A stretch of DNA of 64,000 nucleotides from Deuterostichococcus epilithicus (lineage: Eukaryota; Chlorophyta; Trebouxiophyceae; Prasiolales; Stichococcaceae): the NCBI GenBank assembly GCA_033439295.1, contig JAVTLE010000011.1, forward strand, positions 1,798,082 through 1,862,081, given 5' to 3'. This document shows positions 1 to 55,500 of the stretch, piece after piece; within the stretch, counting starts at the first letter, position 1; every line of letters begins with the position of its first letter. Below the pieces are notes generated by a model that made no database searches, was not told the origin of the DNA, and was given only the letters and a program-made list of their open reading frames with translations. The position numbers and the translations under genes were made by a program.

Positions 1-394
1 CCTCCACCTGGAGCAGAGAGAGCACTACTGGGCAGGGCACTTGCATGAACAACGGAGCAGGTCGGTCCACATCATGAGCATTTGCGAGGACATCAGCAGA
101 TAACATATCCGCCTGTCAGCGAACGTGTAGTAACGTTTTCAGACCGTCCAGAACAGCTTTGATCCGCCAACATGCCTCTGCAAGCGAGCGCTCCAGCTGC
201 TCGGGGGACACCTACGCCAGGAGCTCTGCCGACTCTTGCTCCAAACCAAACTGTCGAGATGTACCGAACAGACGGCAGGACCACGATGTGAGGCCGTGCA
301 CCTCAATAGGCGCGCCAGCTACCCGGGCGCCGCCTCCGCCAGGCGCCTCCGCGCCACTTGCATATGTTCAGGCTGTCTGGAATACACAAGTTCG
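1..394. other. No gene seen; 3' flank of DAC-like gene
   Basis: Downstream of the minus-strand DAC-like gene. No reading frame here has homology that I recognise. The only structured content is a decayed copy of the last DAC exon at about 177-230, listed separately. Confidence 0.5.
177..230 (-). repeat. Decayed copy of DAC last exon, downstream of the gene
   Basis: Bases 177-230 align without gaps to 411-464 inside the last DAC exon, at about three quarters identity by eye. Shared stretches include gcgctccagct and gccagg. The copy lies beyond the stop codon and has no open frame of its own. Confidence 0.6.
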
Positions 395-1589
395 TTAAAA
401 GAACCGCACCTCTGTGAGCAGGCGCTCCAGCTCCTCGGGCGGCATCTCTGCCAGGCGCTTGGCCATCACCGCCTCCTCATAGTCCTCCAGCTGCTTCACA
501 TACGTCATGTCCTGCGGTGGAGGAGAGTTCAGGCAGATGTGCACACAGGCTCTCTTCACGTTCCGACGAAATTGTGACCAGTGCTGGTATCGGCCTTCAT
601 GGTCCTCCAGCTGCTTCACAAACCGTCACGTCCTGTGCATGACCGAGTACGAGGTGTTGTAAGGCCGTCTGCATTCTGCTTCGCTCTCTTGGCAGACGTG
701 TGGTCAGGATTGCAGTCAGATATGTCGTTCTGCCCTGCCACGCGTGCCTTGACAGGCACGCTCCAACCGCCTTGCGAACCAGCCGCTTCATAAGGTCGCA
801 ACCTGCAGGCTCTTGAGTAGGAGTATCCCTTGCCCTTACCTACAACCCAAATTGTAGCACAGGTCCTCTCCGCTGGCTGCTCATCTTGATATACAATTAC
901 AGCATTGGCATTGACGAGAGGCACACCGTCAGTGAGTTTTACCTTGTTGGCGACACGAAAGATGTAGGTGGAGATGTAGCCGATGCAGATGCCGAAAAAC
1001 ACAATGAGCTGCACCGCATTGCCCGCCGTCCCCGGCTCCACGCCAGCTGCCTGTACACCTCACAGCGCACGCAATCAGCAACATGCCGAAAGGCCAGCTG
1101 TCTCACGTCTTCCATAGTCAGAGGGGTGTCCTAGTGTGCAGCTGCCGCTCCAAATGGGAGGTCATGCACTGCGAATCTTGCACTGCTGCTGCCTGCGGAA
1201 CATCATAATGTCTCAACCGACCTGCAGCCCGTAGTAGAGCGCGTAGCCGAACGCGATGAGGCCCACGCCCAGCAAGATGATGTCCTTCCGCGAGTAGCCA
1301 AACTCGGTGTTCTTCTGTGTGAAGCAAGCAAAACCATGTCAAACCTAGATACCCTGTTGGTGTTCTTCTGTGTGAAGCAACCAACAACATGTCAAGCGTC
1401 AGATCCTCTGGCATGCACGGCATATTTGCATGCGTCTTGACTCGTCGAGCTCAGCTCGGAAGTCATTAACACCACCTCCGCAGGTTTGTTGCCATCTGCT
1501 GACGCCCGCACGCCGAGCGAGCCGCGCTGCTGTCTGGCGCCACTGCAGCTGCTGAACCGCCCCAAGGAGCAGCCTTCTTGCGAAGCCAA
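395..1589 (-). CDS. DAC: DUF3007 / DAC-like chloroplast protein (cytochrome b6f accumulation)
   Basis: Four exons read on the minus strand: 1589-1476, 1314-1222, 1050-943 and 511-395. All junctions are phase 0, giving 142 residues. Residues 1-38 look like a plastid transit peptide, Ser/Arg/Gly-rich and ending near GVRASADG. Two membrane segments follow: DIILLGVGLIAFGYALYYGL and VQLIVFFGICIGYISTYIF. Then comes the family signature MTYVKQLEDYEEAVMAKRL. This matches the DUF3007 proteins of cyanobacteria and plastids; the Arabidopsis member DAC is needed to accumulate the cytochrome b6f complex in thylakoids. Order, spacing and length fit the family. It is divergent from PLGG1, with about 750 bases between starts. 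The start at 1589 was chosen because it opens the transit-peptide frame. An additional upstream exon cannot be excluded. Confidence 0.82.
601..637 (-). repeat. Decayed copy of DAC last-exon 5' end, in intron 3
   Basis: Bases 601-637 repeat 481-517, including gtcctccagctgcttcaca. They lie in the intron just before the real last exon. Read on the minus strand the copy keeps the exon start but is frameshifted. Confidence 0.75.
1305..1396. repeat. Tandem duplication of the DAC exon 2 acceptor region
   Basis: The stretch ggtgttcttctgtgtgaagc occurs at about 1306-1325 and again at about 1359-1378, each followed by a related AC-rich tail ending in catgtcaa. The duplicated unit covers the start of exon 2 (at 1314) and its acceptor, so a second acceptor-like site sits about 50 bases upstream in the intron. 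Confidence 0.7.
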
Positions 1590-2335: not shown

Positions 2336-4559
2336 ATGCTGAGTGCATGGCGGTCGACGGCGAAGCCATGGGCGCAGCTCGCTGGGGGTATTACGGCACT
2401 GCTTGCGGCAGACTATGCATGCCAGCTTGTGTGTGGCGCAGCTGGCATACGCTTCCCGCCGGCTCTGATTGGTGAGCTGCCTGCATCTTGGTCCGGTCAC
2501 AGTTCATCTCGATGACCACGTTTGCGCCGGCTGTCTGCTGCGGGACAAGGGCACATGACGCAGGTTGCGTGGAACTCGCAGGCATGTTTCTGCTCGTCGC
2601 CGCGCTGTTGATTGATCAAGCGGCAGGCGAGAGGGTGCACGGCTGGTTTTCGCCAGCGCTCGACTGGGTGCAGCGCTGGATGGCGCTGTTCTACTCGCCC
2701 TTCCTGGTGGCGCTGCCCCTCAACGCCGCCGGCCTTCTAGGCAAGCTGCCCAGGTTGGATAACGTTAACAGCATGCCTTCCTGCAAGACGGGGTCAGCCC
2801 CCATGCATGCTGCGTGATGCAGACCTCGAGGAGTCGCACCAGGGGCCTCAAGGCACGCGCCATGATGAATGCCGCAGGCCCGCAGCTGCCGCAGCTGCTG
2901 CTGCTGCTTGTCGCGGGCGTGGTTGTCAACATGGCGGCGACGGGGCAGGTGGTCATGGCAATCCAGCGGCGGGCGGCGGCAGGCCAGCCGCAGCGCAAGG
3001 CGGACGACCCTGATGTGGAGGCACCCCCGGCGGCAAAAGCGGACACCGCCTCGGCTGCTGACGCGGCTGCGTTGCCCGCCGTGCCGAAGCCCGCTCTGGC
3101 AGCGGCGTGGGGTGAGTGCTGGCGGTGGAGGCTGTGTGCTCGCCCTCGTCAGCTGTGCCCTGAGAGAACTGCGCAGCAGGGCCAGCATCCGAAGGATGAT
3201 GCACTGGCGCGCCGCTGCGCCCGTGCAGGAGCGCTGGCGCTGGCCGCCTTTGCTGGGCTCCAGCTTCGGCCCGGCGGCCCGCACGCGGCGCACTGCGGCG
3301 CGGCGGCGCTGCTGGCCGCCACTGTCTTGGGCTACGTCGGCGGTGCCGCGCTGCCGCCGCGGGCGCAGGCCTACCTGCAGCCCGTGGCGGTGTGCCTAGC
3401 GGCCAACGCTGCGGCGGCGGCGGTGGGGTACGCGAGGCGGCAGAGCCACCTAGATGTGCTGCATGACTACATCAGCGAGGTGGAGACCTTTAGAACTCAG
3501 GTCTGTTGTCAACATCTTTGAGCAAAGGTTGAACCTTTCGAAACTGGGGTTGTGTTGTCACCTCCGCCTACTGCGTCTTTACTGAAGTCCTTATTTAACA
3601 AGCCTGCTGCTGGCAGGGCGGCGGCGGCAGCTGGTTGCTCAAATTCCTGGGCGTCATCATCCTCAGCTTCGGTTTCCGCCTGTTTGAGCGGCGGCGGCTC
3701 ATCGCGCGGCACGCAGCCGCGATCCTGGGCGGCGTGGCTTTCTCAGTCGCGATCTCGCTCTTTGGCACAGCCGCAGCCGGCAGGCTTCTGCGGCTGCCAC
3801 CAGGTCCATGCAGCACTGGAAACGCACCAGCTCACGCAACCAAGCCCACAATGAGCCGATGCTGTTCCTTCATCGCCAGTGCAGAGCCTGTCATCTGGTG
3901 ATCCTCGCAGCCTCTGCAGAGGTGGCCAGGTCGCTGGTGCTGCGTTCATTCCTGGCGTCGCTGTGTGCGCACCCTCATCGCATGTTGTTCCTGACAGCTC
4001 AACAGCCTTTTCAACCACCCTGCAGAGGTGGTCCGGGCGCTGGTGCCACGCTCAGTCACGGCAGCGCTGGCGCTGCCGATCGCGGAGGGCTTAGGGGCGC
4101 CGCTCGCAGTCACTGCCGCCGCCGTCGTGTGCACGGGTGCGGCATTGGGCGTGCTTACAACTGCTTGACCGCGAGTCACAGAACGACTGCTCTACACGGC
4201 CGTGCAGCGGCGGAGGCTCAGTTGCACCTGATGCTCGTGTGTCAGGAAGTCTTGTGCAGGCATACTCCGAGGCTGCTCGAGGCGACAGGACGCGATGTCT
4301 GACGGTGCAACACACTGCAGGTGTGCTGGGTGCCAGCATGGCGCGGCCGCTGCTGGACAGGACCGGGTGCACCGACCCGCTGGCGCGTGGCATCGCCGCC
4401 GCCGCCAGCGCGCACGGCATGGCGACGGCGGCGCTGGGCTCGGCCGAGCCTGAGGCACTGCCGTTTGCTGCGCTGGGATACGCCCTGGCGGGCATCACGG
4501 CAAGCCTCGTGTGCGCGGCGCCGCCGGTGCGGCAGCTGCTGCTGGCCATCACAGGGTGA
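2336..4559 (+). CDS. PLGG1: PLGG1-like plastidial glycolate/glycerate translocator (LrgA-LrgB fusion)
   Basis: Exons 2336-2471, 2582-2740, 2878-3111, 3229-3479 (or to 3500), 3617-3803, 4026-4136 and 4321-4559. All phases agree, giving about 438 residues. The N-terminal half is LrgA-like (GIRFPPALIG, then MFLLVAALLI and a WMALFYSPFLVALPL helix). The C-terminal half is LrgB-like, with conserved ARGIAAAASAHGMATAALGS, EPEALPFAALGYALAG and a final VRQLLLAITG at the stop, exactly where plant PLGG1 ends. The family exchanges glycolate and glycerate across the inner chloroplast envelope in photorespiration. Intron 2 uses a GC donor (ctag/gcaagc), the only choice that keeps phase. The start at 2336 follows an in-frame stop and gives almost no transit peptide, so a 5' exon is probably missing. 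Confidence 0.88.
3906..3965 (+). repeat. Decayed copy of PLGG1 exon 6
   Basis: The segment beginning cctctgcagaggtggccagg, read in the exon frame, gives EVARSLVLRSFLASL. The real exon 6 at 4026 gives EVVRALVPRSVTAALAL. The acceptor cag is preserved. The copy lies in the intron about 110 bases upstream of the true exon. Confidence 0.75.
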
Positions 4560-5317: not shown

Positions 5318-6184
5318 TCAGGCGGTGGCCGCCTGAGCCTCGGTCTCCTTAAGCTTGCCCGCGCTCTTGGCGCGCCAGTCCTTGACCGCTGCCTGCGATT
5401 GGGCACATCGTGTCAGACGAGCAGCACGTCTGATCCAGCGAGCATGTAATGCGGTGGGAGTGGAGGCTGTATCCTCATGCAAACAATGTTATGTGTTTTG
5501 CAGAGTTCGCGCACTTGTATGGCGTCCTGGGCCAACATTGAGCAATGGAGTTTCACGGGCGGCAGGTTGAGGTGCTTTGCGACGTCCCTGCGCAACATGG
5601 AAAATACGGCAATATGGAACATGTTAATGATTTAACAAAACACTTCGACACACGCATGGGAGTAGAAGGGTGAGACTGAGCCCCCAAGCGTGGCAAGCTA
5701 CTGAGGCGCCACATGCCAGGCTGCCAAGCGGCCGCACCCGTTAGTGATCTTCAGAGCTTCATCCACCGTCTTGCCCTTCACCCTGCACAGGTACACGTTG
5801 CATGAATATGTCAGCACCTCGTCCGCCCAGCTACCCTTCACCATGCATGCCGCACAGACATATTTGGGGTGCCGCAGCAGTCGAATGGTCGTCCGCTGAT
5901 TCACGCACTTGCTGCAAGCTATATTCATTGCACTGCCGCACAGCTTGCTTCTGATGCACTCCTCCTCCAGTGTCGATCTTGCAGGGTGGCCAGCTGGTGG
6001 ACAAGCACCGCACCACTCGGTGGCCACGCTGCTGCTGGCGATGGCGGATCCACAGCCAAAGGTCTTAAAGCACGACTCGATGATGCGTCCGTCATCATCC
6101 ACCTGCGTTGGACGGACAACAAAGCTGCTGGGACATGCCCAAGGTGGGTAAGCTGGTGCTATGTGCACTTCGGTCCAACAGGGC

Positions 6185-6229
<45 letters not shown>

Positions 6230-6859: not shown

Positions 6860-7450
6860 GACTCTCCGCGCCTCTGCTGCTACTGCTCCAGAAACTTAAG
6901 TCCCTGGCGATGAGCGAGTTGCACGTTGTTCTCCTGCTGCTTTGAGAACGCGCAAGTTGTTGCAGTGTTGTACAGCTGTGCGAAAGGTGATATTGCTGGT
7001 ATGTCTGAAGCTCTGAACAACTCGTGCGCGAGCGCGGGGCTCGCTACGCTGCAGTGCTCCTCACTTCGTCATGCCCCCTGAGCCCTGACCCCGTTTGTTT
7101 TGTAAAACCCCAAATGCCGATGTGGCTGGTTCCATGGTGATGAATTTGCAAGTTTCGGCACCGCTTACGTCGAGTGTAGCCCACGAGCCGATTGTCCAAG
7201 CATCTACAGCACCGCTCTAGCCGCCTGGTAGCCGCCTGTCAGGCGCTCGATTGGATCGAGAAGCTGAGTGTGTCACAGATCACAGCTTTCGCTTGGACCT
7301 GTTTCGTGTGAGTGCCAGCACGACACACACCAGCCTGCGGAGGGTCTGGCAGCACCCGCAGCCTCTGTACACTCTGCTTCAATCACGCTTGCCGACGCCA
7401 CATCAGTGACTGCAAGCACCGACGGCGCCGTACTGGGAGGACCAACATCA
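6860..7450. promoter_or_regulatory. Divergent intergenic region, ISU1 / ZNF830-like
   Basis: About 590 bases between two outward-facing start codons. It must contain both promoters and 5' UTRs. No core motif stands out. Confidence 0.4.
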
Positions 7451-10541: not shown

Positions 10542-13500
10542 TCACACGCCGCCGCCGCCACCAACAGCGCTGTCGATGTCCTCTAGGCGGGAGAGGATGT
10601 CGGCGAATGACGGCCGTGAAGCCGGAGCGGGCGCCCAGCAGGTGCGGGTGAGGGCCGCCAGCGGCGACGGCGTTGCGCTGGGAATCTCAGGCCGCAGCCC
10701 CCGGTTCATGACCGCCAGCGCCGCCTGCAGGTTGACACGAGAGGGTAGTGGTCAAGTCCTGCTTCGTTCCAGGTTGCCGCCGGCAATGCTGGGACGTGAC
10801 AGCATCACGCTGTATGTCCATCACATGACCGCCAGCGCCGCCTATAGGCAGAATCGCCGCCCAATCACTTCGAAGGCTGATGCTGGTTTGCGGCAGCTCT
10901 GAAACCAGCTTGAAGGCCTCTTCAGGCAGCATTGGGCGATATGGAGCGAATGGGAAGGTCGTTGTCAAGGCAATCGTGCCTGCATGCCGGAGAGCCCCGG
11001 GTACGGCAGCGCCCGCGCACACATTTCCCACAAAACCACGCCAAAAGAGTACACGTCCGCCTGCAGCATAAAACTTTAGGGTTTGCAACACCTCCACGAG
11101 TTCCGCAAGGTCGTGCAGCCAGTGGCTTGCGCGGCACAGCGTCACCCCGCCCCGCAAACACAGGCCACGGCTCGGGCGTGGCTGTGACTCACTGCGCTGA
11201 CAAGCAGGCAGGCGACTGAACAGGTATCACGAGGACGCGTAGGCGTTGGCAATGAAACAATAAATAAATAAAAAATACATAAATAAAATGGCAAGCACAC
11301 CTTCTCGGAGTAGCGCTGGTGGCCCAACACCTCGGGCGCCATGTATTCGTAAGTCCCAAGGCCGCCCGTCTGCATCCACCAACACCAGACCTCAGCCCTC
11401 GAAACAACGTTTCGTTGGTCATCCAGGCTGCCCGTCGAGGCGGTCGAATACACCACGTGTCAGAGTGACCTTGGCGGCGCAGCACGAATGCTCGGAAACG
11501 TCGATCGATGCACACACACGAGGCATCGCAGGTGGCCGAGACACAGCACCGCGGCTTTCACAGAAAGGCAAGCTCGAGCAGCAAGGACTGCCGCACCATG
11601 GTGTTGAGGTCGGCCATGACGCGCGACAGCCCGAAGTCGGCGACGCGAACCGTCCAGTCCGCCTCCACCAGGAGGTTGCCTTCACGGCAGCGATCCTGGA
11701 TCGGTGACTTTGAACAGAAGAACGGAGCAGGCACCTCGGGCAGGATTAGAGGTGCGTGCCAAGCCGTTGGCGCACATGTGCACAACGGGCAGGACTGCGG
11801 CATGGGCGCAGCTGGGCACTCGAAAGGTGCCCCCGAGAGGGTGCACGAGTCCGAATGCTGCATGCGGACTGGAGACCACAGCGGCCGGTCTGTTGTCTAG
11901 TGGCAGAGACCCGGAGGTGAGCATCCCAAGTCTGGTGCAGGAACGGACTGTCAGTGTCGGAAGGCTGCCGCCAGAGGCGCTCCAAGGAGGCGCTTTCGGG
12001 GGGAGCCCTTGCTGGACGCGGGAGCAAGGGGGGGCGGGGCCGCTGGGGACGGCACCTGGCTTCAGGTCGCGGTGCAGGATGTGGCAGGCGTGCAGGTGGG
12101 CCATGCCACGGGCGGCGCCCAGTGCCAGGTGCACGATGTGGCGCCAGCTCAGCTGCAGCCCCGGCGAGTGCAGCAGCCCGTACAGCGAGCCTGCGGGTGC
12201 CAGGAGCCAGGGTCTGGGTTTCAGGCGAGCGGCACGAGCGTGCCAAGCGCGCCCCGGAAGGGTCGGGAACCAGGCGTCAGGTGCTTCCCAGAGGGAGTCG
12301 AGTGCTTGCCCTCCTCATGCAAGCTGTGGTGGGCGCAGGCCCGGTCAGCCACGCCGGGCGCAGTCTGGCAGGACCAGGCTCCGAAGGCCGCTGCCCAGCG
12401 GCGCTGCGCAGGCGGCCGGCGGCAGACATGCAGACAGGTTCCTGGGACACCAAGCTCTACAAATGCAGTCAAAGGGCAGGCAACACCTGCGCAACACACA
12501 CGGAGACGGGTACCGAAGGCTCCCTGGGCTGGGAGTGCGGCGCCGGCAGCCAGCGGAACCGCGGAAGCCATTTGCGTGCGATGGACGAACACACCCTTCA
12601 TGATGGCGCAGGAGAGTCGCGCCCCCGGCGCAGAAGGGGGAGACAAGGGCCAGACGCAGCGGCGCAGTGCGGGGGGCTGGCAACAGCTTGTAAAAAGAGT
12701 GATTGACTCGCACCCCGGGCACAGAAGGGGGTGATGAGCGCCAGCCGCGGCGGCGCGGTGCATGCCGCCAGCAGCGGCAGCACGTGCGGGTGCGGCGGCA
12801 GCGACGCCATCGTCGCGATCTCCCGCCGGAACTCTGCGATCAGCATACCGTCCAGCGGCGCATGCTGGCTGGCGATCTTGACGGCCACCGCCGCGCCGCG
12901 CCACTGCCCAGCGTACACCTGTAGAGGCGTCCAGCGAGGTTTCTAAGTGCTGAGGATGAATGAACCGATTCTCAGGAGGCCATAAACGGTCGCTGCTTTC
13001 CCATTACCATCTGGCTGCCAAAACCACCAGCGCACCACGGGCATGCTGCATCTCGTGTCGTGGCGCTGTTGCCTGCAGCTTGTTTACTGAATGCCAAATG
13101 AGCAGCGCGGCACTCGGGAGAGCAGGGACCTTGGGGGGCATCATTTCCCGGCAAGTGTTTCAGGCGGCTAGGTGGCAAAAGGCTTTTTGAGCGCGCCCAC
13201 CCGACCAAAGCCGCCCTCGCCGATCTGGCGTCCGAATGCCAGCTGCTGAAGGTCCACCTCGTCGATGCGGCGCGCCAGCGGCGGCAGCTTCCAGCTTCCG
13301 GCTTCCGGCTGCCGGCCCTCTTGTGGCTGCGCCAGCTGCGGCAGCCTTGCGTCCGCCTGCCGGCCCTGTTGCGGCTGCGCCTGCTGCGGCGGCGGCTGCG
13401 ACGGCGGCGCCGGCAGCGCCACCACCACATCCAGTGGCAGCGACACTACAGCCGGAGCTGCGCCTGCAAGCACCGGCAAGGCAGATGCAGGCAGATGTGG

Positions 13501-16601: not shown

Positions 16602-19600
16602 ATGAGGCGCCTGTGGGGACTGTTTGTGATCACCGCTAGCCTGCTGAGCCTCTCGACGGCGCTGCCAGCGTCGACACAGCTGCATGTCGACGCCGGCAGA
16701 AGCGGCAATGCTGCTCAGGCGGGGCCCGATTTCCCCAGAAAGCTCAGCACGGCGTCAGATCAGGAGTACGAAAAGGCGCTGGCGCTGCGCGGGGATGATC
16801 ATATGGCCGAAGGGTGGGTACAAGACGCTATTCTGGGCGCGCACCGTCCCGGAAAGGGCTCCTGCACATCGCCATCCCAGTCTCTGTGCACGCCACGGCA
16901 GGCTTACTCCTCCAGCGCACAATCGGGAGAAATGAGCTCGGTGTTGTGCACCCCGCGCTGCGCCGCAGGATCGGCCTCCTGGTGCCGGCCCTGCTCGCCG
17001 TCCGCTTGTCGTCTCTGACGCGGCAAATCCCACGCAGGCTGCCGGCGCCGCTGCTGGTCAGCCTGCTGGACGGCAGCGTGGCGGCCGTGGACGAGGTCTC
17101 GGGCCGCAAGCTGTGGACATATGACACGGGCACCGCTCTGGTGTCCAACAAGGCAGGGCCTCTTTCGCCGCCTTTGGGTCGTGGACATGCTTGCAGCCGG
17201 GCATTGAAACACGGGAAGGTCTCTAGTCTGGGATCCGTTGAGCATGGCAGAGGCCCAAATCGTACCTTGCGCAGCGCGCATCATGGTCTGCAGCCCAGCG
17301 GCATGCATGCTGGCGAGGGCGGCCGTGGGCATGCGCTGCGCTGCATGGGCTGAGCATGACCGCAGCATGCTTGCGGCCTGCAGGGCGTGAGCGTGGCGCA
17401 GGACGGAGCGCAGTCCACCGTGCTGCCCGGCGCGGACGGCAGCCTGTATGCGTACCGCCACGAAGACCAGATGTACGAGGTGGGCCGCTGCTGTGCGTTT
17501 TCCTGCAGCACCAAGAGATAGCGCACAACAGCAGGAGAGTCCACAGCGAGGAGGTCTGGCCGCAGCCGGGAGCATGGCTGGAGGGTGCGGCGACGCACGG
17601 ACATGCATTGCTCCTGCTGACTGCGCCTCCACTGCATGATGCTGCGGGACTGTGGCAGCAGTGAGCAGCTTCGTGTTGCAACACATGCCATGCTGTGTGC
17701 CGCACATACCGGCGGAGGCTAACTGTTGTAGTTCGGTTGCCACAGATTCTGACGGAAGCAATAGAGGACCTGGTGGGTGGCAACCCCGGGCAGCCTGGCC
17801 TTTGGCTCCTCGCTGCTGTTGGGTGCTGTGGATACTGAACAGCTGGAACAACACTTTCTGTCTGGGCACTGCCGCAGATCCTGGCCGAGACAATAGAGGA
17901 CCTGGTGGACGGGTCACCGGGCAGTCTGGCCTTTGACGGCTCCCTGCTGCTGGGCGCCAAGGACACCACGCTGTTCGTGCTGGATGTGAGAAGCGGGAAG
18001 TTGGTGGAGGAGGTGGCGGCGATCGGGGGCCGGCTGCTGCAGGTCGCGGCCATTCTAGGTGCGTTTTGGGGCCGCCGGCGGCCGCGTGTACTGCAGGCGG
18101 GTATGCAGGCGGGTATGCCTTGCGAATTACGAGGTCACCTGTGGAAGCGATGAGAGAGGCTGGCTTTGGATGTCGCGACGGCCGGCAGAGTGTTCGTCTG
18201 CACTGACAGGCTGTGATGTTAGCCATGTCGGTGCTCGAGCAGTTGTGCCACCTCTGTCTATGCTTAACTTGGGACACGCAGCGATTGGCCGTGCATTGCC
18301 GGCATGGCTGAGTGGGCGGCCACGCTGCCTGGTCATCGTAATCGTCTTCAATATGGACGAGCCCAACGATGTAATGGCGGTGCAGCGACTAGGCTGCCTG
18401 CTCAAGGATGGCACACCCCGAAGCTGCAACATGCAGACATGCAGATCTTGCAAATGATGGAGCTGCGAACCTCGGGGAGGAGTCAGAGCCAGACATCACC
18501 AAGGCGGTGGAGGGACGGCTTACCGGCTTGCAATTAGGACGACATGATCTGACCAAGCACTGCTGTGCATGTGCAGACCCCGGGGAGGAGCCGGACCCGG
18601 ACAAGTCGCCGGGCGCGGCGGCGCTCGCGGCCGGCAGCGGCGTCCTGGTTGCGCGCTCAAACTGGCATGTGCACAGCCTCGGGCGCGGCGGCGGCGTGCG
18701 CTGGAACGTCACATTCGGCCGTGTGCAGCAGCTGTCGCTGCCGGCGCTGCGGGCGCTCGTCGATGACATGGACATGCCCTTCCCGCACTCGCGTGAGACA
18801 GCTTGACGATGACAAACCTGTCCGGATATACTGCTGGGGCATCTCCTGATGCGGCAACGACTTTGGGGCACTTTGGTGCTTTGCCGCCCGAGTTTGTGGG
18901 AGCCATCTTCGATTCGATGTTCCGCCCCGTCCGTTCTGCCTTACCTGCGTCGTGCATCTGACGCCGGACGCCTGCCCTGCCGCAGAGACGCCGGGCCTGC
19001 TGATCGGCCCCCAAAATTCGCTGCTGTGCTTTGACCCGCGCTCGGGGCTGCAGCGCTGGTCCACAGCCTTCGATGCCCCGCTGGTGTCCGCCTTCCCGGG
19101 CGGCAGCGCCGTCAACATGCTGCCTGGTGCGTCCACACGCCGAAAACCCTAAACCCTAAAACAAAGCTGGAAAATAGCCCTGACGGTTGCATGGCATCCT
19201 TTCCTGCAGGATGCCTCACCAACACCGTGCAGACGGCAGTTGGAGGTAGCAGAGTCGGCGCCTTGCGCGTCCGTTGTTGCCCAAGTCCACCTACAATGCT
19301 GAACCGTCCACAGCACAGCAGGCTTGCCACTCGCAACCCGTACACCTCCGTCCTCGATGAGCCGCAACCGTCCGGCATGCTGCAGGCCCAAACCACGAGC
19401 TGCCGGATGAAGACTTGGGGCGCATTTGGGTGGGGCAGCTGCCCGGCAGCGGCGCGCTGTACGCACTTCCAGCTTCTTACTACGGATTCGACTTCCCGGA
19501 CGCCTGCCCGACGGGCGTCGGCAAGGCCGAAGGCGGCGGCGGCGGCGGCAGTAAGGGCGGCGGCGAGTGCGCCGACAGAGCGCTGCCAGCCTCAGCATGG

Positions 19601-22600
19601 GACGCCAGCGGCAGGTGCGATGCCGCAGCAGGTGCAAGGGGCTCGATGGGTTGGGAGCTCCTAGTGGCGTGACACGCTGCCTGTGGTTGCTGCTGGAGGT
19701 TTTAGATTTTGGGTTCACGGGTATCTGTTCTGGTTGCTCCCCAGAGGCAGAGCAACTGCAGCGCTTCCTCTGGATCAGTGTCGCCCCCCAGAGGCAGAAC
19801 CGGATTCGCTGCTTGGTGGTGCCACCGAGCTCGCACCTGAGCACGCTGGCGTCCGGCTGCGTGCAGGCGCGTGGTCGGCAATGAAAGCTTTTTCGGTCCT
19901 GGCGTGCCGCTGGGAGTGCACGAGGTAAGCCTCTCCTTCGCTGTTTGATCCCACCCATTTTCCGACTGCACAGCACATGCGCCAGCACATCGCACGGTGT
20001 CGGTGCCCTCCTGTGATGCAACAAGACCAGGTCTTGCACGATGTGACCGCAGGTGAGCGCAGCGACACAGGCGGGCCTGGCGCTGCCCGTCGGCCGCGGC
20101 TCGCCTTATGGCTACCAGGTACACCTCAGCCTGACAGCTCCTCGTGTCGAGGAATTGCAAGTCCTCGTGGCTTCCTGGGCTCCTAGTCTGCACGGAACAA
20201 CACAGGGGCTCCTCGTGTACCCTGAAGGAATCAAGCAAGGTGTCACCCTTTCCTGAACCCGACCGGGCCACCACCCAGCCTTCACTCAAATGACGCTCAT
20301 TCCTGCGGCCAGTACCGGGAGGCGCCGCGGCTGCTGCCGCCGACAGACGAGGAGGCGGAGGCGTGGGCGGCGGCAGACGCCTACGGCGCCCTGCCCTTCG
20401 GTGGGCATCCGGCGCATGCCATATGCGTACAGCCTGATTTCGAAGTCGGACTCGTAGTCGAAGCTCGCTGTTGCACAGAATTTGTGAAGCCGCACTCGTG
20501 CTGCCGTGGACCCGCCATCTGTCCGCCGCTCATCACCAAGTCCATTGCGATCGAGGCCGGTCGTGACGCTGTGGGGGCATTGCCTCTGCTTGCCTGGAAG
20601 AGATGGCTGGAGCCACTGCTGCGACTGCATGGCTGGCAGGCATGTTGTCATGGTCCCTTGCTGGCTTCTGCACCAGAGCGCGCTTCACTTTTGCACAGGC
20701 TGGTCCTGGAAGAGCCTGGCGGGGGTGGTGCTGAGCATTGCCGCCGTGGCCGGCGTGCTGGCCGGCGTGGTTGCGGCGCTGACGGTGCTGCTCCTGGCGC
20801 GGCGGCGGGAGTCGGCGCAGGCGGTGGCGCGCCAGCCAGCCGCAGCAGTGCAGTTGCACCTGGCAGAATCAGTCTCGACGCAGGCGAGCGGCAAGGAACT
20901 GGTGCATCTGCACTCTGGCTGGCGAGGTGCTGAAATCACAGGCTGTTGGCTTTGAGCTTGGATTCAGATGATAAACCCTAGAGTGGGTTGGGAGCCCCAA
21001 CTGGAGAGCTTTGGTTGTGATGCAGGTCGGAAGGGAGACCGCAGAGCAGTTTGGCACTGCTGCGTCAGTGAATGGCGACGTGCCGAGGGTGGGTCCTCAC
21101 ATGGCAGTGCCTGTAGCTGGATCGCCTGCAATGCAACTGTTTGTAAGTCCATGCAGCTAGCAGTGTGGCCCTTGGTATTGTTCTGAGCCGCCAAAGTGCG
21201 GCATTGGTGTGTGCCCAATGTTTGCTTTCGTGCTGCATTCCGGAGTTCTTGTCTGCCATTCATGTCTGCGCCTACATCTGCAGAGGCGGCAGCGTCGGCG
21301 GAGGCAGCGGGGCAGCGGAAGAGGCGGCACGGCGGACGGCGCCTCGACCGAGCCCAGCCCCGGACCGTCCTCAGTCGCAGACAGCGATCCGTTCGGCTCA
21401 GACGAAGAGGTGCGTCCTGAGTGGCAAGACGTGGCACCGCCCGGTTCGGATGGGATTTTCACCTCACTGCGCATGCCGCTCAACCCTGGCCCCTGGCGGT
21501 AGAATCTCGGAGAAAGCATCGATGCGAGGCATTTCACTGAGCTCCACTGCCTGCCCCCGACTCGCAAGCAGGCAGAGGCAAATTCATTGGGGTCGCGCGT
21601 GTCAGAGCGCGGCTCGCTGTCAGGCTCGGCGCCGCGGCGCATCCGCACCAGCGACTCTGGCGGCGGCTCTGGCATTGACAGCTTCCGAGGCAGCAGGTGA
21701 TGATTCTGGGCAATCTGATTGGCAATGTGACGACAGGGTCTCCCGTTCCCGCCTTTCACCCAGAGCTGCTGACTCTACTCTCCACTCTGCTTGCTGCGGC
21801 ACTCGTTGCCACACACACGTCCAGCACTCAGCGGCATGCATCACGAGTAGCATGTCTCGGTTGCAAGTTGAAGGCCGACAGCCTCGTTGTTCGACATCAG
21901 GGGCGACGGCCACGACTCACGGCACAGCAGCTCCGGGCAGCGCAGCGGCGGCAGGGGCGGCAGCCAGGCAGGCGACGGCGGTCGCGACAGAGAAGGCGGC
22001 AGCCGCGGCGGCGCCGAGGCTGAGCCCCCGCCAGAGTCGCCGCGGACGCCGCTGCCGCCCGGCGTCACGCGCATTGGCCGCATGGAGGTGTGCTTGTCAG
22101 CACCCAGTGGTAATGTGTGGTGCCGGACTACATAAAGCTACATGAAGCTGCCCGTGTGGAGCTGTGACCCGGATGGGAATGCGACCATCAGGCCGCAGTC
22201 CCGTGTGCCTTACCTGCTATTGCTCTGACGACCCTCAGCGAATCACACCGGGCTCCAGCTCGGGGCAGCACTGCTGCAGGGCCACAGCCATGAGGGCTGG
22301 GGGACAAAGTCACTGGCTCCTCCCTGTGACGACTGCGCCCACTTCTAGGGCGACCGTACCGCAAGCCGGCACTCTAGCTTGCAGTTGCGGCTGTTCTCCT
22401 GCAGGCTTTGCACTGTCCGGTACTTGACATCATGCCAACAAACAGCGCGTTGCCCGCCCAGCTGGGCATGCACATGCTGGGCTTCGGTAGCGGCGCATCA
22501 TGGCGCTGGAGGGGGCAGCTAAACGGCCAGACGACTGCGCAATTGTTTGCACATATCACGTGATCTCTGTCAAGGTGGGCACGCGGGTGCTGGGCTATGG

Positions 22601-32400: not shown

Positions 32401-32546
32401 TGGCGCTGCACGTGCGACCGCTGACGCCGGGGCAGCTGGTAGTGACGGCGGGCGGCTACGCCGCCGTTGATGCCGCCACGGTGTACGTGTTCCTGTTTCG
32501 GCCCTTCGCCTGGCCGGATGGCAGCACGGCGCGCTTCATGTGGTGA
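29403..32546 (+). CDS. ALG10: ALG10 dolichyl-P-Glc alpha-1,2-glucosyltransferase
   Basis: Exons I can place: 29403-29501, 29604-29780, 29936-30064, 30358-30486, 30596-30694, about 30847-31000, about 31185-31380, about 31620-31730, 31926-32121 and about 32377-32546. A first membrane helix is followed by the catalytic loop [15 protein letters not shown] and [12 protein letters not shown]. Further family blocks are [54 protein letters not shown] and the C-terminal [16 protein letters not shown], directly before the stop. The enzyme adds the third, terminal glucose to the dolichol-linked oligosaccharide in the ER lumen, which oligosaccharyltransferase needs for efficient transfer. It is polytopic. 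The exon near 30847-31000 is the least certain. Confidence 0.92.
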
Positions 32547-39273: not shown

Positions 39274-44068
<4,795 letters not shown>

Positions 44069-45433: not shown

Positions 45434-48400
45434 TCAGGACCGCCCCACCGCCGTGGTTTCCTGCGTCCCCTGCACATGAACAGGGCGGCCGTAAAGGGGC
45501 AACGCTGCTGCCTTGATTGTCGACGCCGAAGGCGTTGGGAGGCGGCACAAAACGCGCACGTGTATGGGTTGCAACAGGTCGCGCCGAGCGGCGGTCGCCG
45601 CCGCTGCCATGCACCAGTCACGACATGGCGGGCACCGATGCACCAAGCGAGGGCTGTTCCAGCAGCCTGCCACGACAGCGGGGTGGCACCTGCAGGGGTT
45701 CCGGTGAGGTGCGGGTGAGCAGTTGGGAGGGGCTGCCAGGCGGCGAGGGGCTGCGGCGGCCGCCACTGGTCGCGCAGCGCACCGGCGCCGGCCCGATGTG
45801 CGTCATGGGCGAGGAGCCGCCATTCGGGGCGTCCATCACCTGCGAACAGCGGGTAAATGAGATGATGAGCAGGCATGAGGCACGCACGGGCGCGGTCACT
45901 GCACCGGCAAGCCAACGCCGGCAGGAGGTCCGGATGTGGCGAGCTCAAGCAGGCACCGTGTGTGTGTGATCGAGCACTTTAGGAGTGCCGACAGCACCCA
46001 GCATCCTGGCATAATCCCAATTCCTACAAGGAGACCTAGTCCAGAAGATCCTCACAGACCAGGATTATGTCGCTGGCCTACAACTGTGTTGAGAGATGTC
46101 CGGGACACCCTGGCACCCACCATTCAGCTGTGATGCTTGGCACCCAACACCCTGCCGGGTCCACCAGGCCCAGGATGCTATCGCTGGTCTGCAAGTTTGA
46201 CGACTGAGGTGCACCCAGCCTTTGGCATTGCGACACCAAAGACCACACCTGGTCTACCAGATCCACCAGGCCCAGGATGCTCTCGCTGGTCTGCATGATG
46301 TCGCCGCTGCCCGTCGCCGAGTGCTGCAGCGGCGGCCGGCCCCCGCCGCCCGCCTTCGCCTGCGGTGTGCGGGCATGGGATGCGTGTGTGCACGATGCCA
46401 CACGACAGCTTGTCGCTGCTGCCAGGCGGCATCAAGAGTGGGATGCGGAGGCGGAACGTGGAGATGGGACGTCCAAGATGCCGCAGAAGGCAGTCACCGA
46501 CCACAGCCTGCTCTGCAGGCAATCACTGTTCTGCACAGTGTTTGGCACGTTTCGGTCACTCAATCATGCTTCTGAAGCAAAGGGGAGGCAGGTCGCCTGA
46601 GGGGCAGGACCGGGCAGCCAGGGCAGCGTGCCTCGCGGCGCAATTGGGGCAGCGGCAAGGCCGAGCCGAGCAGCGCCCTGCAGGGTTTTTGCCAGGAGTG
46701 AAGCCTCTCGCTGTTGCGTACAGGCAGCAGAGGCAGTGCCAGTCGGGTTGCGTCCGTGTGCTTCAGAACTGGAGCCTCTTGCAGCCCCAACGATACAGTC
46801 GGTGCATGGCCGGCCCAAGGGGATACTAAGTCCAAGTTGGACTCAGTATCCCCTACCGGCCCGCCGCCGCTCCCAGCACGCATGGCATGGCCAGAAAGAG
46901 CACCAGAGCAGCAGGAGCTTGTCGTTCGCACCGGCGGTGGCGTGGAGGGCAGCGCCGCGCCGCTGCCGCCACCGCCGCCGCGCTGCGAGGCCGCGTCGAC
47001 CGCCGCCACGGCGCCGGCGGCGGCGGCGCCGGCCCCAGCGCTGCTGCCGGCGCTGGAACCCACGGACGGCCCGGCGCGAGGTCCGGCGCCGCCGCGGTGC
47101 GGCGCGCCCGCCGGGTTGGTGCCGCTGTTAGAACGCGTCGATGGCTGCGAGCCGCTGTTGGATCGGGTGGAGGTGACGCGCGCGCCGGCGGCGATGTGGA
47201 TGATGTCCCGGATCGCGGCCTCGCTCTGCGGGCACTGGATGCGCTTCTGCGGGCCAAGCAAAAGCGGGGGGGATCAGTGGGCGTTGCTGAATCGGGCAGC
47301 GGAGGACGAGCGTACAAGGTGCTGGCTGGTGGCTGATCGCCATATGCGAGCTCATTCCTCCGCCGCCGCCAGCAGTATTCAGCCCTTCGCTGGCCCCTGG
47401 GTGGCGCCTGTGCATTTGCGCAGATGGTGCGAGGCCGGTGCCTTGCAGCCACACACAGAGGGAGGCTCGAAGCAAAGCTCTGCCTCCCAGGTTTTGTTAG
47501 TTTTGGTTCTGCGACGCGCACCGCAGTGGGCAGGTCCAGCAGGTCGTGGTTGAGGGACAGCAGGCTGGGCGCGAGCTCCGTGCGGAACCAGGGGTGCCGC
47601 AGGATGCCCGCGACTGACAATCTGCGCAGGAAGGTGGTCAGAGGCAGGGTCGTGACCGAGGGTTACTTGCCGCACAGGTTTCAGGTGTGCCAAAGCGCGC
47701 AAGGCGGAGGCATGCATGCAGGCGGCTGCTGACATGACGGTCCATGCAGACCGCTTGACGGCAGACAAGTGGCTGACCCAGCGTGCAGGCATGATGGTCT
47801 CCGGCAGCGGCGGTGACAGGGTGAAATGATGATGACAACATCAATAGTAGATGCGCACCTGGCCCCAGACCTCGTCCGTCAGTGGACGAGCAGGTCGCAC
47901 AGAGCGCAAGGTCGACAACCAGAGCAAGCAGCTGCGGTCAGAATACACCCCAAGACCCTATAGTGTGCGCACCGGCGCTTGGTGTCGACGGACAGCATGC
48001 GGGCCAGCAGGTCGCGGCAGGGCTGGCTGACGTGCGCCGGCAGCTCGTACTCGGCCTTGACGATGCGGGGGAACATGCGGTTCAGGCGCGTCATGCTGCG
48101 GCGGCAGGGGGGGCAAGCGGGGAGTCAGACGTCACAGCATCCTTCAGCCTTCAGGGTCCAGCCCTCGAGGTGCCCACCCCTACATGACAAGCAGATGGCA
48201 TGAAGACTGCAAGGTCACGCCGCCACAACCAGGCGGGGGGCGCTGGCAGCGGGCAGCGCCCTTGTTGGTTCGTCGACATCTGCCGTCCTGACATGCAGGC
48301 AGACTGCAATGCGCGCATGCGGGCCTGCCTGGCAGGCGCTCCCCTCGGAGCAGCAGTCGAACTTCCGTCTCGGTGCTTACAGCCCCTGCTCAGGTCAGCG

Positions 48401-51400
48401 CAACCAGCCCCTGCCCATGCGTTACCCATCGATTTGAGCCCTGGTATCACAAGCAGTCACTGCCCACCTGTCGAGTTTTTCGTCCTCCTTGCGCCAGAAG
48501 GGGAAGACGCCGGAGAGCAGCACGTACAGCAGCACGCCGGCCGACCAGATGTCGGAGATCTTGCCCTGGTACCGGTTGTCGATCAGAACCTCCGGCGCGA
48601 TGTACTCGGGCGTGCCGCACAGCGTCTTGCACAGGCTCTCGCTCTGCGCACACGGCAGGAAGGGACCCTAAATTTGACCGCTGCTCCCAAACGTCCACGC
48701 AGACGTCCACCGCTGCGCAGGAGCGCAGATGCGAAGGCGCCGGGAGGTCGGCTCCCTACTGCAGGCAGGCAGGCAAGCTGCAGCGCAAGAGTCTTGTAGG
48801 GAGGCAGCTCATCCCATCACACAAGCAACAGCAGAGCAGTTCCGGAGCCTCAGGCCCCTGTTCCTGCCTCCCCCTTCGCTTGAACCCAGGAGCAGCCCAG
48901 CAGCAGTCAGCCTGTAACAAGAGTCGGCATTTCAGTCTTTCCAAAGGAAAGAAAAGAAGAACCCACCAGCTCGTCCTTGGAGTAGCCGAAGTCGCACAGC
49001 TTGAGCGCCACGCCCGGCGAGTCGGGGTCCCCCGCCAGCAGCGCATTCTCCAGCTGCGGCGGAAGCGGAGCAGGGATTCCGTCAGGTTTTGGCGCAAAAG
49101 GGCAATGCAGCCCTTTTGCGCCAAAAGGGTTTATGGCCAGGTGGGGCCATCGAAACAGAGCAGTGCACAGGCTGTGTGTGGGCGGCGGGCGAGCAGGCAG
49201 TGCCTGATGCCGCAACCGGCGATCCCAAGGCGGTGGCAGAAGACCCTCAAGAAGCCTCCACAGGCAGTGCGGCCGATGCTGGCGCTGCATCGATGGGATC
49301 AAGGAAACCGCACCTTGATGTCGCGGTTGGCGATACCCAGGTGGTGCAGGAAGTCCACAGCCACCATGAGCTGCTGGAACAGGCGCCGAGCGTGTGCCTC
49401 CGGCAGGCACCTGCGCAGGGGCATGCACGTCTCTTGAAGCAGGGCATGCTGCATTGCACGCTGGCTGCATGTGTGAGCAGGCTGCACCAGTCCGTGATCA
49501 GCGCTGAGAGCGCGTGTCAGCGCATGCTTGCTGCAGCGCCAGACCCCAAGGCCAGCTCAGATGGACCCGGTACTTGCTGCGCTGCAGCTGCCTGCATGTG
49601 CCCCCGCGCACGGGGGAAACCTACATGAGTCTCGCCTGCGGCTGCAGCGCCAAGGACGGTGCAGCCAGGCGCCAGTGGGGGGAAGGCTCACGGGTTGCCG
49701 ACCCGGTGGGCAGCGTGCCGTGCGGCGGCTGGCGGCGGGGCATGGACACGTGCCAAACAGGAGGAGGGATCCGTAGGAGTGCTCACTGGGTGGCGGGGGC
49801 CGGCGTGCCGGGCGGCGGCCGGCGGCGCCGGTTGCGCGAGTTCCAGGTGTCCACCAGGTCCGCCATGTCGCCGCCGGCAACGTACTCCATCGCAATGCCC
49901 AGGTAGGCGTCCGTCAGGAACACCTGAGTGACATTTGCATTTCGACATGTTGGTATTTTAAGGTTTCTGTCTGCCGCATCACCGCCAGCAAAGCACTCCA
50001 TGGCGATGCCCAGGCCAGGCTTCCATCAGGAACACCTGCAGCGGAGGAGTCCAGCCGCGCATGTCAGCGTCTTTGGTACTATCAGCTGGGGTGGTTATAC
50101 GTGGCAGATGACGCACGATGTCGGGAGGCCACCCCTGCCTTTGAAGCCGCTGCTACCCTTCGAAGCCGTTGCCGCGCTTCAGATGCCTCCAAACCTTTGA
50201 AAAGCGAGTCGCACCTCGCGGAATTGCACGATGTGGGCGTGCCCGGCAAGCAGTCGGTGGTTCAGGATCTCGCGCTCCGCGGCGCGGTGCAGGTAGGGGC
50301 TGCCGCGCGGCACGAACTTGATGGCCACCTCCTCGCCCGTCTGCCCATCACGCGCCAGCTGCACAAAACCTGAGGCGCCTGCGTGTGCGGTGTCAGGGAA
50401 TCCATGAAGGGGCTCTCCTACAACGTGTTTGTAGGATCTCTTCACGGTTCTGAGCAATAACAGAGGAACCCTGTGGACACTTTCGTGGGTGGTTGCTGAA
50501 GAGGCGGCGATACGATGCGGCGATTCGGCGGTGGCTTGCGGTGCATGCAAGCAAGGCTGCAAACGCCGCCAGAAGCATGCAAGAGAGCATGTTAGTGCAC
50601 AGTTGCGGGAGGCGCATGCAACTGTGCTGTGACTTGAGTGAGAGCACTGCATGCAGCATGCATATGCAACTGCGGTCTGCCAGCGGCGGTGCCGATAATC
50701 GACATCGGTGGCACAAATGTCATGAAACACCACATGCAGCAGGCCGCCGCACCTGAGTTGATCTCGCGAATCTTGGTGTATCGCGGGTGCCCTTCCAGCG
50801 GCTCGGAGCCCAGTGGCCGCACCACGTAGCCATTGTTCTTCTCCGGCCCGGACTTGTCTGCCGGCGGCGGCGGCGGCGGCGGCCCAGCGGCCTGCCGCCC
50901 GTTGCCGCCGCCGTGCTTGCTGCCCGAGCCGTGCGGCTTCTGCAAAGCAGATGTGCTGAGGATGAGAGCGACAGGCAGAGACTCGAGACTGGCTGATGCA
51001 CCATCTGCAGGAGTGCAGTGTCGACTACTGCCCTGGCTGTTCGAAGCTGACGTCGACTGTCAACACAAAGCAGAAAGCATGACGGGTCGCACCTCTGGAG
51101 TCGAAGGCTTCGTGCTGCTGGACGCAGACGCCTGCACTGCTGCTGCTTTTGCGCCGCTGCTAGGTGCTGCCAGAGCCAGCGACGGCGCCGCCTTAGCGGG
51201 CGTCACTGGGGTTGGGAGAGTGGCCGACAACTTGGTGGTCGGCGCTGCCGAGGAGGACTGCCTGTCTGCTGCAGGAGCATCCTGCGTCGCCTTTGCCTGC
51301 TGCGTTGCTGTTGGCCTGCGGTCAAATCGAGAAGCAGGATCGAAGCCAAGCACAGCATGCTGAGACAGAGGTGACGCGAGCTGCCAACATTTGGCCGAGC

Positions 51401-52527: not shown

Positions 52528-55500
52528 TCAGTCCTCTGCCATAGCGAGCGCCGGCAGCGCAGCCTCCAGCGCCAGCGCCCAGTGTGTCCAATGGGTGCCG
52601 CCCTGGCAGTAGACCGCAAAGGGAGGCCGCAGCGGGCCGTCCGCCGACAGCTCCGCCGTGGAGCCGTCAATGAAGGTGCCATCGGCGAATACCACCTCGT
52701 CGCCGTACCCTGGCGTCGCGCCTGTGGCACATCCCTCGACATCGTTTCGGATCACTATCGTGCCGTGGTTCGTGCACGTGAACCTCAAACGATAGGTGTC
52801 TAATACCATGAAATTTCAATAGAATAGGAATATAGCGCAGGAATGGCCAGGGGCTAGCCCAACCGCTTTTATTGCGGACCTGGCGTGGGCATAATGTAGG
52901 AGCCCACGGGCGACGCGCGTTGCACAGCGGCACAGAACGCCAGCATGCGCGCGCGGCTGCCTAGCTGCAGCGAGGTTATGGCGGACGGCGGCGCCGGCAG
53001 GCCGTCCAGGCTGTGCGGCGGCGACGCCGGGAGGCCGCACCGCGCCGCCGCGGCCGCCAGCAGGCGGCCCCCCTTGAGCGATTCGCCCACCGTCTGCGGC
53101 GCCAGGAACAGGCCTGCGAAGTAGATTGGGAGGTAAGTGAGCGACCTATCTACAGCTGGCTCTCAGGCATGCGCCTGCAGTTTGCTCCCGGCTGGAGCCC
53201 AACGCCTGCAGTGCCAGGACGAGCCTGTGCGAAGATGGTGGAGTCAAGGCTTGCGGCACGAGGGGTTCGTGGCAGCCGGAGCCTGCATTGCTTCGGCTGC
53301 TCATGAGAAGAATAGAGACAATCCACTCCTGGCTCCGCCGGCGCCCACACGCGCTGCCAGACCAGCCGGTGCTCCGGGAGCTGCGGCCGACACAGAAGAG
53401 CGGCGGCAGCACCCACATCTCTGTCAGGCATCCTGAGACCCAATGCAGCAGACGGCCAACGGCAGGGCTCACCCTGGAACATGAGGCGCAGCTGCTCCGC
53501 CGGCACCGCGCCGGCGTCCAGGCCGACGCCGGGCGCGGTGAGCCGCGCGCCGGCGGCCGCCACCAGGTCGGCGCGCCCCGCAATGTAGCCGCCAGTCGGC
53601 GCGAGCGTGCCGCCGGGGCTTTTGATCAGGCTGCCCATGCACAGGTCCGCCCCCACCTGCTCGGGAAGGACACCACCAGCAATCAGCAGCTGGCGCCCTG
53701 ACGCTCAGACTGGCTTCAAGCGAGGTGGAAGTTTGTGGGGGACTCAAAGAGCGCTTAATAGCCGCAACGAGCGTGCAACAACGCTCACAAGCCACCGTCA
53801 ACCCTCTGCATGCTGAGCTCCCGTTTCGCAGCAGGGTGCGAGGGGGCCAGCTCCTCGTCCTCGCCCAAGACACGCACCGAGCAGGGCTCTGCGGGCTCTG
53901 TGAACTCGCCATAGCAGTTGTCGACCAGCACCAGGCAGTTCGGCGACGCCTCCCGCACGATGCGGACAGCCCGCTGGATGTCCGCGATCGCCAGTGTCGG
54001 GCGGTCTGCATAGCCGCACGAGCGCTGCACCAGCGCAACCTTCGTCTCTGCGGCATAAAGGGACGGGGAACCGAGTGAGCGGCGGCATTCCTGCAGGTCA
54101 CTGTGCGCCGGCTGAGGCAGCAGAAATTGAGATGGCTGAGGCCGGCGCGGGGACTGGAGACTGAGCAAGACGGGGTTAGCCGCGGGATTGCGGGATTGCG
54201 TTCCTGTCGCCACAGCCGGGGGTGCAGCATGCCCGCTGTGCAGAGCCGGCAATGAGATGCGCGGCGGCGCGGCGGCGCTGCGGCGGCAAAGCAGCACCTG
54301 GCGTGACGGCGGCGGGAAGCGCCTCGAAGTCGATGGCGCCGCCGCCGGCCGGCGGCCGCGACAGCTCGTCGTAGGCAACGCCCCACTCAGCCAGACTGCC
54401 GTGCCCGGGCGTGCCGCGCAGCCCAATCACCTCCTCCAGAGTGTCGTACGGCCTGCAGGGCAGGTCATGCACCCGCATGGTGCAGGCTGTTCGATAGACA
54501 AACCCCAAACAAAACCCAAGAAGGGGACCCAGGCACACGGGGGTCCACCCCAGGGGGCCGCACAGCAGCAGGCGAGAACAGAGCTGCTCGGAGCCGAGCT
54601 CAGCTGAGGTGGCTGAGCTCAAATCGAGCTGAAACCCAAAGACTGACGCGCTGTCCTGTCGCAGAAGGAGCACAAACCTGCGGAACTCGCGACAACACTC
54701 AAACCTGGCCGGCACGGCAGCTCAGCGCACCTGCCGGCGACGGCGAGCATGCGATCCCCCGGGCGCAGGCACGCGAACAGTGCTGTGGATATCGCGTGTG
54801 TGCCGCTGACCAGCTGGCAGCGCACCAGCGCGGCCTCAGCACCCATGACCTCCGCCATAACCTGCGCAGCATTCGAGCATGGGCTGCATGAAAGGTCTCA
54901 CAGCGCCAGTACCAACGGCCTCCGCCATGACCCGCGCAGCAGTCAATCATGGGCTGGATGGCCGCCCTCCGCAGCCTGAAACTCCGCGGCCTGAATATCT
55001 CTGGCGGAGCACTTTTTGGGGTTCGCAAAGCAGGAGCTGTTGATGACCTGCGTGCAATTGCACAGCTGTCGCGGCCAAACGATGCATTGGATGCGGCGTC
55101 GAGCAGGCAGTTGGCTGAAGAGCTGAATTGATGGCTGATGCACCTTGTCAAGCGCAGCCCGTCCGAGGTCGCCGTGGCCATACCCCGTGGAGCCCGCAAA
55201 GTGGTGTGGCCCGATCTGTGCGTTCCGGAATGCGGCCTGCGGGACGCCACCTCCAAGTCTGCCGACCGTGCCGTGCCGTGCAAGGGCGTCTGTAGGGTCA
55301 TGTTTCCAGCTCCGGAGCATGCCGGCGGGGACACCCTGCGGCGGCCCTCGTCAAGCAGGCCAGTGCAGGGGTTCAGAGGTCACGAGCATGCAGGCAACTG
55401 CTGGCGAAGCACTGCTGTTGGAGGCAAAGGCAGCACCTGCACGCGCCGCAGGTTGGCCGCCACCAGCCGGTCGATTGCCGCAAACTGCGCCGACACCGCC

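Follow-up and report, generated by a model that had tools for sequence, protein, structure and literature searches.

Results

Exon-edge copies in the introns of the window

The 64,000-base stretch of the Deuterostichococcus epilithicus genome examined here (hereafter, the window), which is part of contig C10 in an assembly of 46.8 Mb and 21 contigs, contains genes whose introns carry degenerate direct copies of the edges of the adjoining exons, in many cases together with the splice site. The window was analyzed along with nineteen 10-kb stretches drawn from six contigs (C1 and C3-C7), 254 kb in total, and genes were modeled from sequence only with a gene finder self-trained on the same 254 kb, so that all exons are predicted ones. 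It returned 60 genes with 520 introns (median intron 228 bases, median exon 118), and the trained splice consensus was CAG/GTGCG for donors and YGCAG/G for acceptors, the slash marking the junction. Five of the 13 gene models of the window were submitted to Pfam, and all five scored above the curated cut-off (NifU_N, LrgB, Peptidase_S10, Met_gamma_lyase, and DUF3007). Among the best relatives of the pyridoxal phosphate (PLP) enzyme are proteins of green algae (Coccomyxa, 73% identity; Myrmecia bisecta, 70%; Trebouxia, 66%), and the top match reaches 80%. The labels Raf-like, IRE1, SnRK2-like, and DAC are putative and were carried over from an earlier reading of the letters of the window, the preliminary description. 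The model at 16602-32546 probably fuses IRE1 with the following gene, which has its start near 29381 and presumably resembles an ALG10-type glucosyltransferase.

Probes, each holding at most 60 bases of exon and 14 of intron at an exon edge, were aligned to the adjoining intron, and, as a control, the same edge was aligned to up to 20 length-matched introns from other genes. The probed introns numbered 509 of 520, those shorter than 68 or longer than 828 bases being excluded. Matches scoring at least 15 numbered 51, five of which were left out for their offsets (27, 260, 261, 264, and 285 bases), leaving 46 events in 43 introns. The 37 of these with the splice site inside the match (28 acceptor and 9 donor events) are called register events. 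The copies in the window are listed below, where d is the offset between parent and copy in bases, percentages are identities, and the intron half is the intronic part of the presumed duplicated unit.

175-635, minus strand, DUF3007 (DAC) gene: acceptor edge 477-514 with a copy at 597-635 (d 121, 92%); the opposite edge of this exon, 409-464, resembles sequence at 308-346 (d 112) and at 175-230 (d 234), both lying to the left of the first gene model
1306-1395, minus strand, DUF3007 gene: acceptor edge 1306-1327 with a copy at 1359-1380 (d 53) and a similar intron half (p 0.005)
3914-4069, plus strand, LrgB/PLGG1-like gene: acceptor edge 4020-4069 copied at 3914-3963 (d 106, 78%)
5751-5847, minus strand, ISU1-like gene: possible copy at 5811-5847 of acceptor edge 5751-5787 (d 60, 70%), its score of 15 being at noise level
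10707-10848, minus strand, putative Raf-like kinase gene: acceptor edge 10707-10731 copied at 10824-10848 (d 117, 92% over 25 bases)
12614-12778, minus strand, putative Raf-like kinase gene: donor edge 12705-12778 copied at 12614-12687 (d 91, 74% over 74 bases)
17738-17966, plus strand, putative IRE1 gene: tandem duplication with an offset of 131-132, including an exon start; exon predicted in both copies
18464-18603, plus strand, putative IRE1 gene: acceptor edge 18572-18603 copied at 18464-18495 (d 108, 78%), with a similar intron half (p 0.005)
22460-22633, plus strand, putative IRE1 gene: acceptor edge 22573-22633 copied at 22460-22520 (d 113, 73%)
22707-22854, plus strand, putative IRE1 gene: donor edge 22707-22745 copied at 22816-22854 (d 109, 79%)
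24574-24836, plus strand, putative IRE1 gene: tandem array of 2.5 copies that contains donor edge 24574-24638 (offsets 101 and 97) and repeats the exon half as well as the intron half; called the 24.6-kb array below
42759-42872, plus strand, serine carboxypeptidase gene: acceptor edge 42845-42872 copied at 42759-42785 (d 86, 93%), with a similar intron half (p 0.005)
46152-46295, minus strand, putative SnRK2-like kinase gene: exon end 46254-46295 copied at 46152-46193 (d 102, 90%); splice site outside the match
49205-49356, minus strand, putative SnRK2-like kinase gene: donor-side exon 49316-49356 copied at 49205-49245 (d 111, 71%); splice site outside the match
49868-50038, minus strand, putative SnRK2-like kinase gene: acceptor edge 49868-49926 copied at 49979-50038 (d 112, 85%); no similarity of the intron half
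53085-53234, minus strand, PLP enzyme (Met_gamma_lyase) gene: acceptor edge 53085-53121 copied at 53197-53234 (d 112, 78%)
54837-54960, minus strand, PLP enzyme gene: acceptor edge 54837-54890 copied at 54907-54960 (d 70, 81%), with a similar intron half (p 0.01)

Excess over chance and distribution

Exon-edge copies are confirmed to be genuine, to lie far beyond chance, and to extend outside the window. When edges were compared with their own and with foreign introns at scores of at least 16, 33 of 509 acceptor edges matched their own intron against 17 of 9910 in the foreign introns, and the corresponding figures for donor edges were 13/509 and 20/9910. At scores of at least 18, own-intron acceptor matches numbered 26/509 and control matches 2/9910, while some matches scoring 15-16 are near the chance level. 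The own intron in reverse complement was matched at scores of at least 16 by none of the 509 acceptor edges and by two of the 509 donor edges, and a non-adjacent intron of the same gene was matched at that threshold by no edge (0/501 acceptors, 0/501 donors). The excess recurred in a held-out set of four additional stretches with 83 introns, sampled later, where acceptors gave 4/83 against 3/1637 in the controls and donors 1/83 against 3/~1637 (pooled, 5/166 edges against 6/~3270). Comparison of the sequence with itself at fixed offsets yielded 52 segments scoring at least 20 per 100 offsets at 100-150 bases and 8 at 150-200, over a background of 0.5-0.7 per 100 offsets at 800-1000, 2000-2200, and 3000-3300, and a repeat search of the window found direct repeats spaced about 50-130 bases. 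The preliminary description, which had taken the decayed copies to be real and had counted about 16 of them in eight genes, is thereby upheld: 18 copies were found in the same eight genes at scores of at least 15 and offsets of 50-200, the noise-level ISU1 copy included and the 24.6-kb array entering the count twice, and 17 at scores of at least 16. The stretches at 175-230 and 308-346 bring two further copies to this count.

Host introns make up 17 of the 132 introns in the window and 26 of the 388 in the 190 kb outside it, the window being richer in them than the 19 outside stretches (Fisher p 0.04), and the events are unevenly spread over 23 of the 58 intron-bearing genes. If the sample is typical, scaling from 26/388 gives an estimate of several thousand host introns genome-wide. 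The GC content at third codon positions of the gene does not separate host introns from the others (p 0.71). Four of the outside stretches, L017-L020 on contigs C5, C6, and C7, have no exon-edge copy in 92 introns, where about 8 would be expected from the other 15 stretches (26/296); held-out stretches on C6 and C7, unlike L017-L020, do hold copies.

Anatomy and decay of the copies

Among the 46 events, whose offsets lie between 50 and 200 bases, the offset between copy and parent has a median of 110 and an interquartile range of 92-126. It falls within 80-145 bases in 38 of the 46 across the whole sample, and four of the five held-out matches have offsets of 100-134. The offsets of the 51 matches show no preference for multiples of three. 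Matched lengths range from 18 to 68 bases (median 40) and identities from 70 to 100% (median 81%), figures that correct those of the preliminary description. The unit is about 110 bases, and that description captured mainly its exon half. Of the 36 acceptor matches 30 include the splice site, as do 9 of the 15 donor matches. In 16 of the 28 acceptor register events the match starts at most 7 bases from the splice site, starts deeper than the 14 intron bases of the probe being undetectable.

Parent and copy differ at rates of 0.175, 0.196, and 0.222 at codon positions 1, 2, and 3, respectively; the mismatch is nearly equal at the three positions, and therefore the copies decay freely, without codon constraint such as an alternative duplicated exon should display. 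They are not "usually" frameshifted, as had been supposed: 15 of 37 are frameshifted, 4 contain a stop codon, and 20 have neither. Fourfold sites differ between parent and copy by 0.235, against 0.191 at codon positions 1 and 2, and therefore the parent exons change little even at fourfold sites; that the two values are so close suggests that synonymous sites are constrained or that the copies have undergone extra change.

The AG of the copied acceptor is kept in 22 of 28 cases, and 6 copied acceptors equal or exceed the true site in score; the GT of the copied donor is kept in 6 of 9, and 3 copied donors score as high as the true site. These pseudo-sites could act as decoy splice sites. For the 16 pseudo-acceptors of the events with a match start within 7 bases, positions -15 to -4, part of which fall inside the match, score 0.57 on average, against -0.97 for intron CAG sites (p 0.0014) and 1.46 for true sites. 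Copies adjoin two junctions of the PLP enzyme, and none of six homologous proteins has an insertion at either.

Added intron length

The median length of the 43 host introns is 330 bases, against 221 for the 466 others. Subtraction of the offset brings the hosts to 225 (p 0.83 against 221), whereas subtraction of the copied length alone leaves them at 305 (p 2.5e-5 against 221; p 0.019 against a length-biased 246). Since host length minus offset is indistinguishable from the length of the other introns, each event lengthens its intron by about a whole unit. Without two odd hosts, the corresponding medians are 229 (p 0.46) and 322 (p 1.4e-6), and a null that is length-biased and conditioned on room for a copy predicts a host median of 257, with a 99.9th percentile of 300. 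Copies occur in 2/129, 5/132, 7/128, and 29/131 introns from the shortest to the longest length quartile. Intron length minus offset lies between 56 and 598 in 50 of the 51 matches and is -26 in one, a duplication of a whole exon start. In the held-out set, from which one match of the five (score 16, offset 325) was excluded for this test, four hosts have a median of 333, or 215 after subtraction of the offset, against 196 for 79 others (p 0.81).

The intron half of the unit

If the unit straddles the junction, its intron half should be duplicated as well, and the stretch between the copies was accordingly compared with the stretch beyond the intronic copy, transitions being penalized less. 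Homology was found in 11 of the 37 register events at p<0.05 each (combined p 1e-8), in 9 of 35 when the 24.6-kb array, which has two entries, is set aside (combined p 9e-7), and in 10 of 37 in a stricter, anchored test (combined p 5e-5). A continuation of the exon in the spacer showed no clear excess (8.7 against 7.9 for acceptors and 9.6 against 8.5 for donors), and acceptor spacers compared with the flanks of other events, serving as background, had a mean score of 8.1. A spliced-mRNA source, in which the flank of the copy would resemble the neighboring exon, is not supported (3/35 at p<0.05, combined p 0.16), one of the three matches being the 24.6-kb array and another a donor copy in stretch L008 with an offset of 169. 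The latter, a 94% copy at L008:5053-5254, is followed by a few bases like the start of the next exon (p 0.02 among 35 tests), the flank pattern that a spliced source would give.

Possible preference for junctions

Among 48 pairs of similar segments with offsets of 60-199 and scores of at least 18, 34 pair an exon with an intron, 6 an exon with an exon, 5 involve intergenic sequence, and 3 pair an intron with mostly intron, two of these three belonging to the 24.6-kb array. Probes placed within introns found copies at scores of at least 16 in 5 of 394 cases against 6 of 3890 in the controls. At scores of at least 18 a single one of the 394 did so, fewer than uniform duplication predicts, but this intron-intron shortfall is only suggestive of a preference for junctions because the intron halves of the known events are mostly unrecognizable too. 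A different class of repeat is seen in the 15 purely intronic pairs with scores of at least 18, which lie in introns of L003, L005, L008, L011, L012, L015, L016, and L019, among others in the sample: 11 have abutting periods of 15-38 bases, unlike the exon-edge class of about 110 bases, and the other four have offsets of 129 and 335 (in the region of the 24.6-kb array) and of 501 and 506 (L018).

Discussion

We consider it probable, at roughly 65%, that the copies descend from short tandem duplications across splice junctions that are tolerated by virtue of the remaining intact site. Duplications, most of them of units between 80 and 145 bases (median offset 110), would arise often in the genes of this alga, and those straddling a junction would be tolerated because an intact acceptor or donor remains. 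When an acceptor is duplicated, an intact one would still stand directly before the exon, and when a donor is duplicated, the original would stay in place, the extra unit falling into the intron in either case. The spliceosome would presumably go on using the exon-adjacent acceptor or the first donor, the intron would gain one unit, and the stranded exon edge with its splice motif would decay unconstrained. The intron half would fade faster than the exon half because both of its copies are free to change, while the exon half has one conserved partner. We infer that tandem duplication produced every one of the events and that splicing of the RNA relies on the intact sites; the repair of breaks or nicks, rather than slippage, may have given rise to the duplications. 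Small tandem duplications are known from the repair of breaks with overhangs (PMC8355091). The preliminary description had proposed a continuing process of short tandem duplication, and the many-aged duplications, their presence on several contigs, the added intron sequence, and the decoy-like sites accord with that proposal, to which the present results add a unit of about 110 bases that usually straddles the junction.

Several observations weigh against this explanation in its simplest form. Simulations of pure tandem duplication, in which the exon change rate was lowered to suit the codon-position mismatches, gave intron-half homology in 58-64% of events, against the 11 of 37 observed and 8 of 28 acceptor events in the test matching that of the simulation, and placed the match start at most 7 bases inside the intron in 13-29%, against 16 of 28. 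Some young copies, such as that at 49979-50038 (85%), show no intron-half homology. Some events may have another origin, or introns may decay faster than modeled. The 30 hosts with scores of at least 18 remain somewhat long after subtraction of the offset (270, p 0.048); subtraction of the copied length gives 344 (p 3e-7). When edges were compared with the intron across the exon from their own, matches at scores of at least 16 were found for 2 of 455 acceptor and 6 of 452 donor edges, the latter exceeding the foreign rate of 20/9910, which may be explained by short exons whose edges overlap. Finally, simulation of uniformly placed duplication gave 19.5-23.0 intron-intron matches per 394 intron probes at scores of at least 18, whereas one was observed. 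Plain neutral duplication that is uniform in place does not fit everything.

That last shortfall is what one would expect if duplication were targeted to exon edges, a feature of the junction such as a step in base composition, nucleosome placement, or transcription-linked nicking or pausing favoring duplications of about 110 bases. The 34 of 48 segment pairs that join exon with intron and the short abutting periods in 11 of 15 purely intronic pairs point in the same direction. Nevertheless, intron halves are unrecognizable in 26 of the same 37 events, so that intron-intron pairs may simply be invisible, and intronic copies do exist (5/394 against 6/3890), which leaves targeting a possible but doubtful explanation. 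To regard junctions as hot spots for such duplications, and a junction-centered process as a main route of intron growth, in view of the copies in 29/131 introns of the longest quartile against 2/129 of the shortest, is equally tentative. The same 26 events without significant homology between spacer and far flank, together with the 16 of 28 match starts close to the splice site, would also follow if end joining had written the exon edge (median 40 bases matched) into the intron as a templated insertion and left the intron flank uncopied. We think this unlikely, however, because removal of the copied length leaves the hosts too long (305 against 221) while the full offset fits, and because it would not explain why the match so often contains the splice site (acceptors 30/36, donors 9/15); as the sole cause, copy-only insertion is disfavored by the intron-length test.

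Duplication of the junction segment after a staggered break, with unrelated filler between the copies, would reconcile the added length with the missing flank homology in those 26 events, but a new acceptor would then need a branch point within random filler, and 11 of 37 events show intron-half homology, which makes filler a somewhat poorer candidate than templated insertion. Far less probable is the continued use of the copies as alternative or tandem-duplicated coding exons. An exon is predicted in both copies at 17738-17966 and at L009:7118-7345, but the near-equal change at the three codon positions, the frameshifts and stop codons, and the six homologous proteins without an insertion at the two PLP-enzyme junctions speak against such use. 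The duplication in L009 is a tandem one with an offset of 120, covering a small exon or the start of an exon. The least credible explanation of all is that the copies reflect chance or faulty assembly: some matches scoring 15-16 are near the chance level, but 26/509 acceptor edges match at scores of at least 18 against 2/9910 controls, and with identities of 70-100% (median 81%) and places on several contigs the copies do not look like reads or haplotypes assembled twice.

The process proposed here can be set against several known routes by which introns and exons change. Introner elements add sequence at intron positions across a genome, whereas here the source is the neighboring exon edge, and the one segment searched for in the genome, that of the 24.6-kb array, occurs in a single place. 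Tandem exon duplication places a copy of an exon beside its parent and gives rise to alternative exons, whereas the copies described here are mostly partial exon edges that evolve without codon constraint. The nearest known system is intron gain by tandem duplication, which shares the short tandem duplication within a gene. In the potato RdRp case, the duplicated unit spans an intron-exon junction and brings along a branch site, a pyrimidine tract, and an acceptor (PMC4974935). In contrast to that case, no new intron position arises in the gene models of D. epilithicus; an existing intron becomes one unit longer, and the offset is not the intron length. Duplications by fill-in of break ends (PMC8355091) differ in that splice junctions and introns are not treated in the consulted portions of that report, and in that the units here are mostly of 80-145 bases. 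Titles and abstract openings in the open-licence literature yielded no account of such copies as a habit of whole green algal genomes, in a search that covered little of the subscription literature and did not extend to the Chlorella variabilis genome paper.

Single steps of intron lengthening, which are rarely seen elsewhere, are visible in these genes. The conserved parent allows a copy to be recognized and roughly dated, and both the unit size and the gain in intron length can be measured. If the junction bias is true, exon-intron structure would be tied to a local mutational process, which would also keep providing decoy splice sites, from which alternative sites or new introns could develop. 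A tandem duplication that is near-complete and about 158 bases in size (79% identity over 135 bases, then 96% over 23), lies outside the predicted genes at L016:6118-6432.

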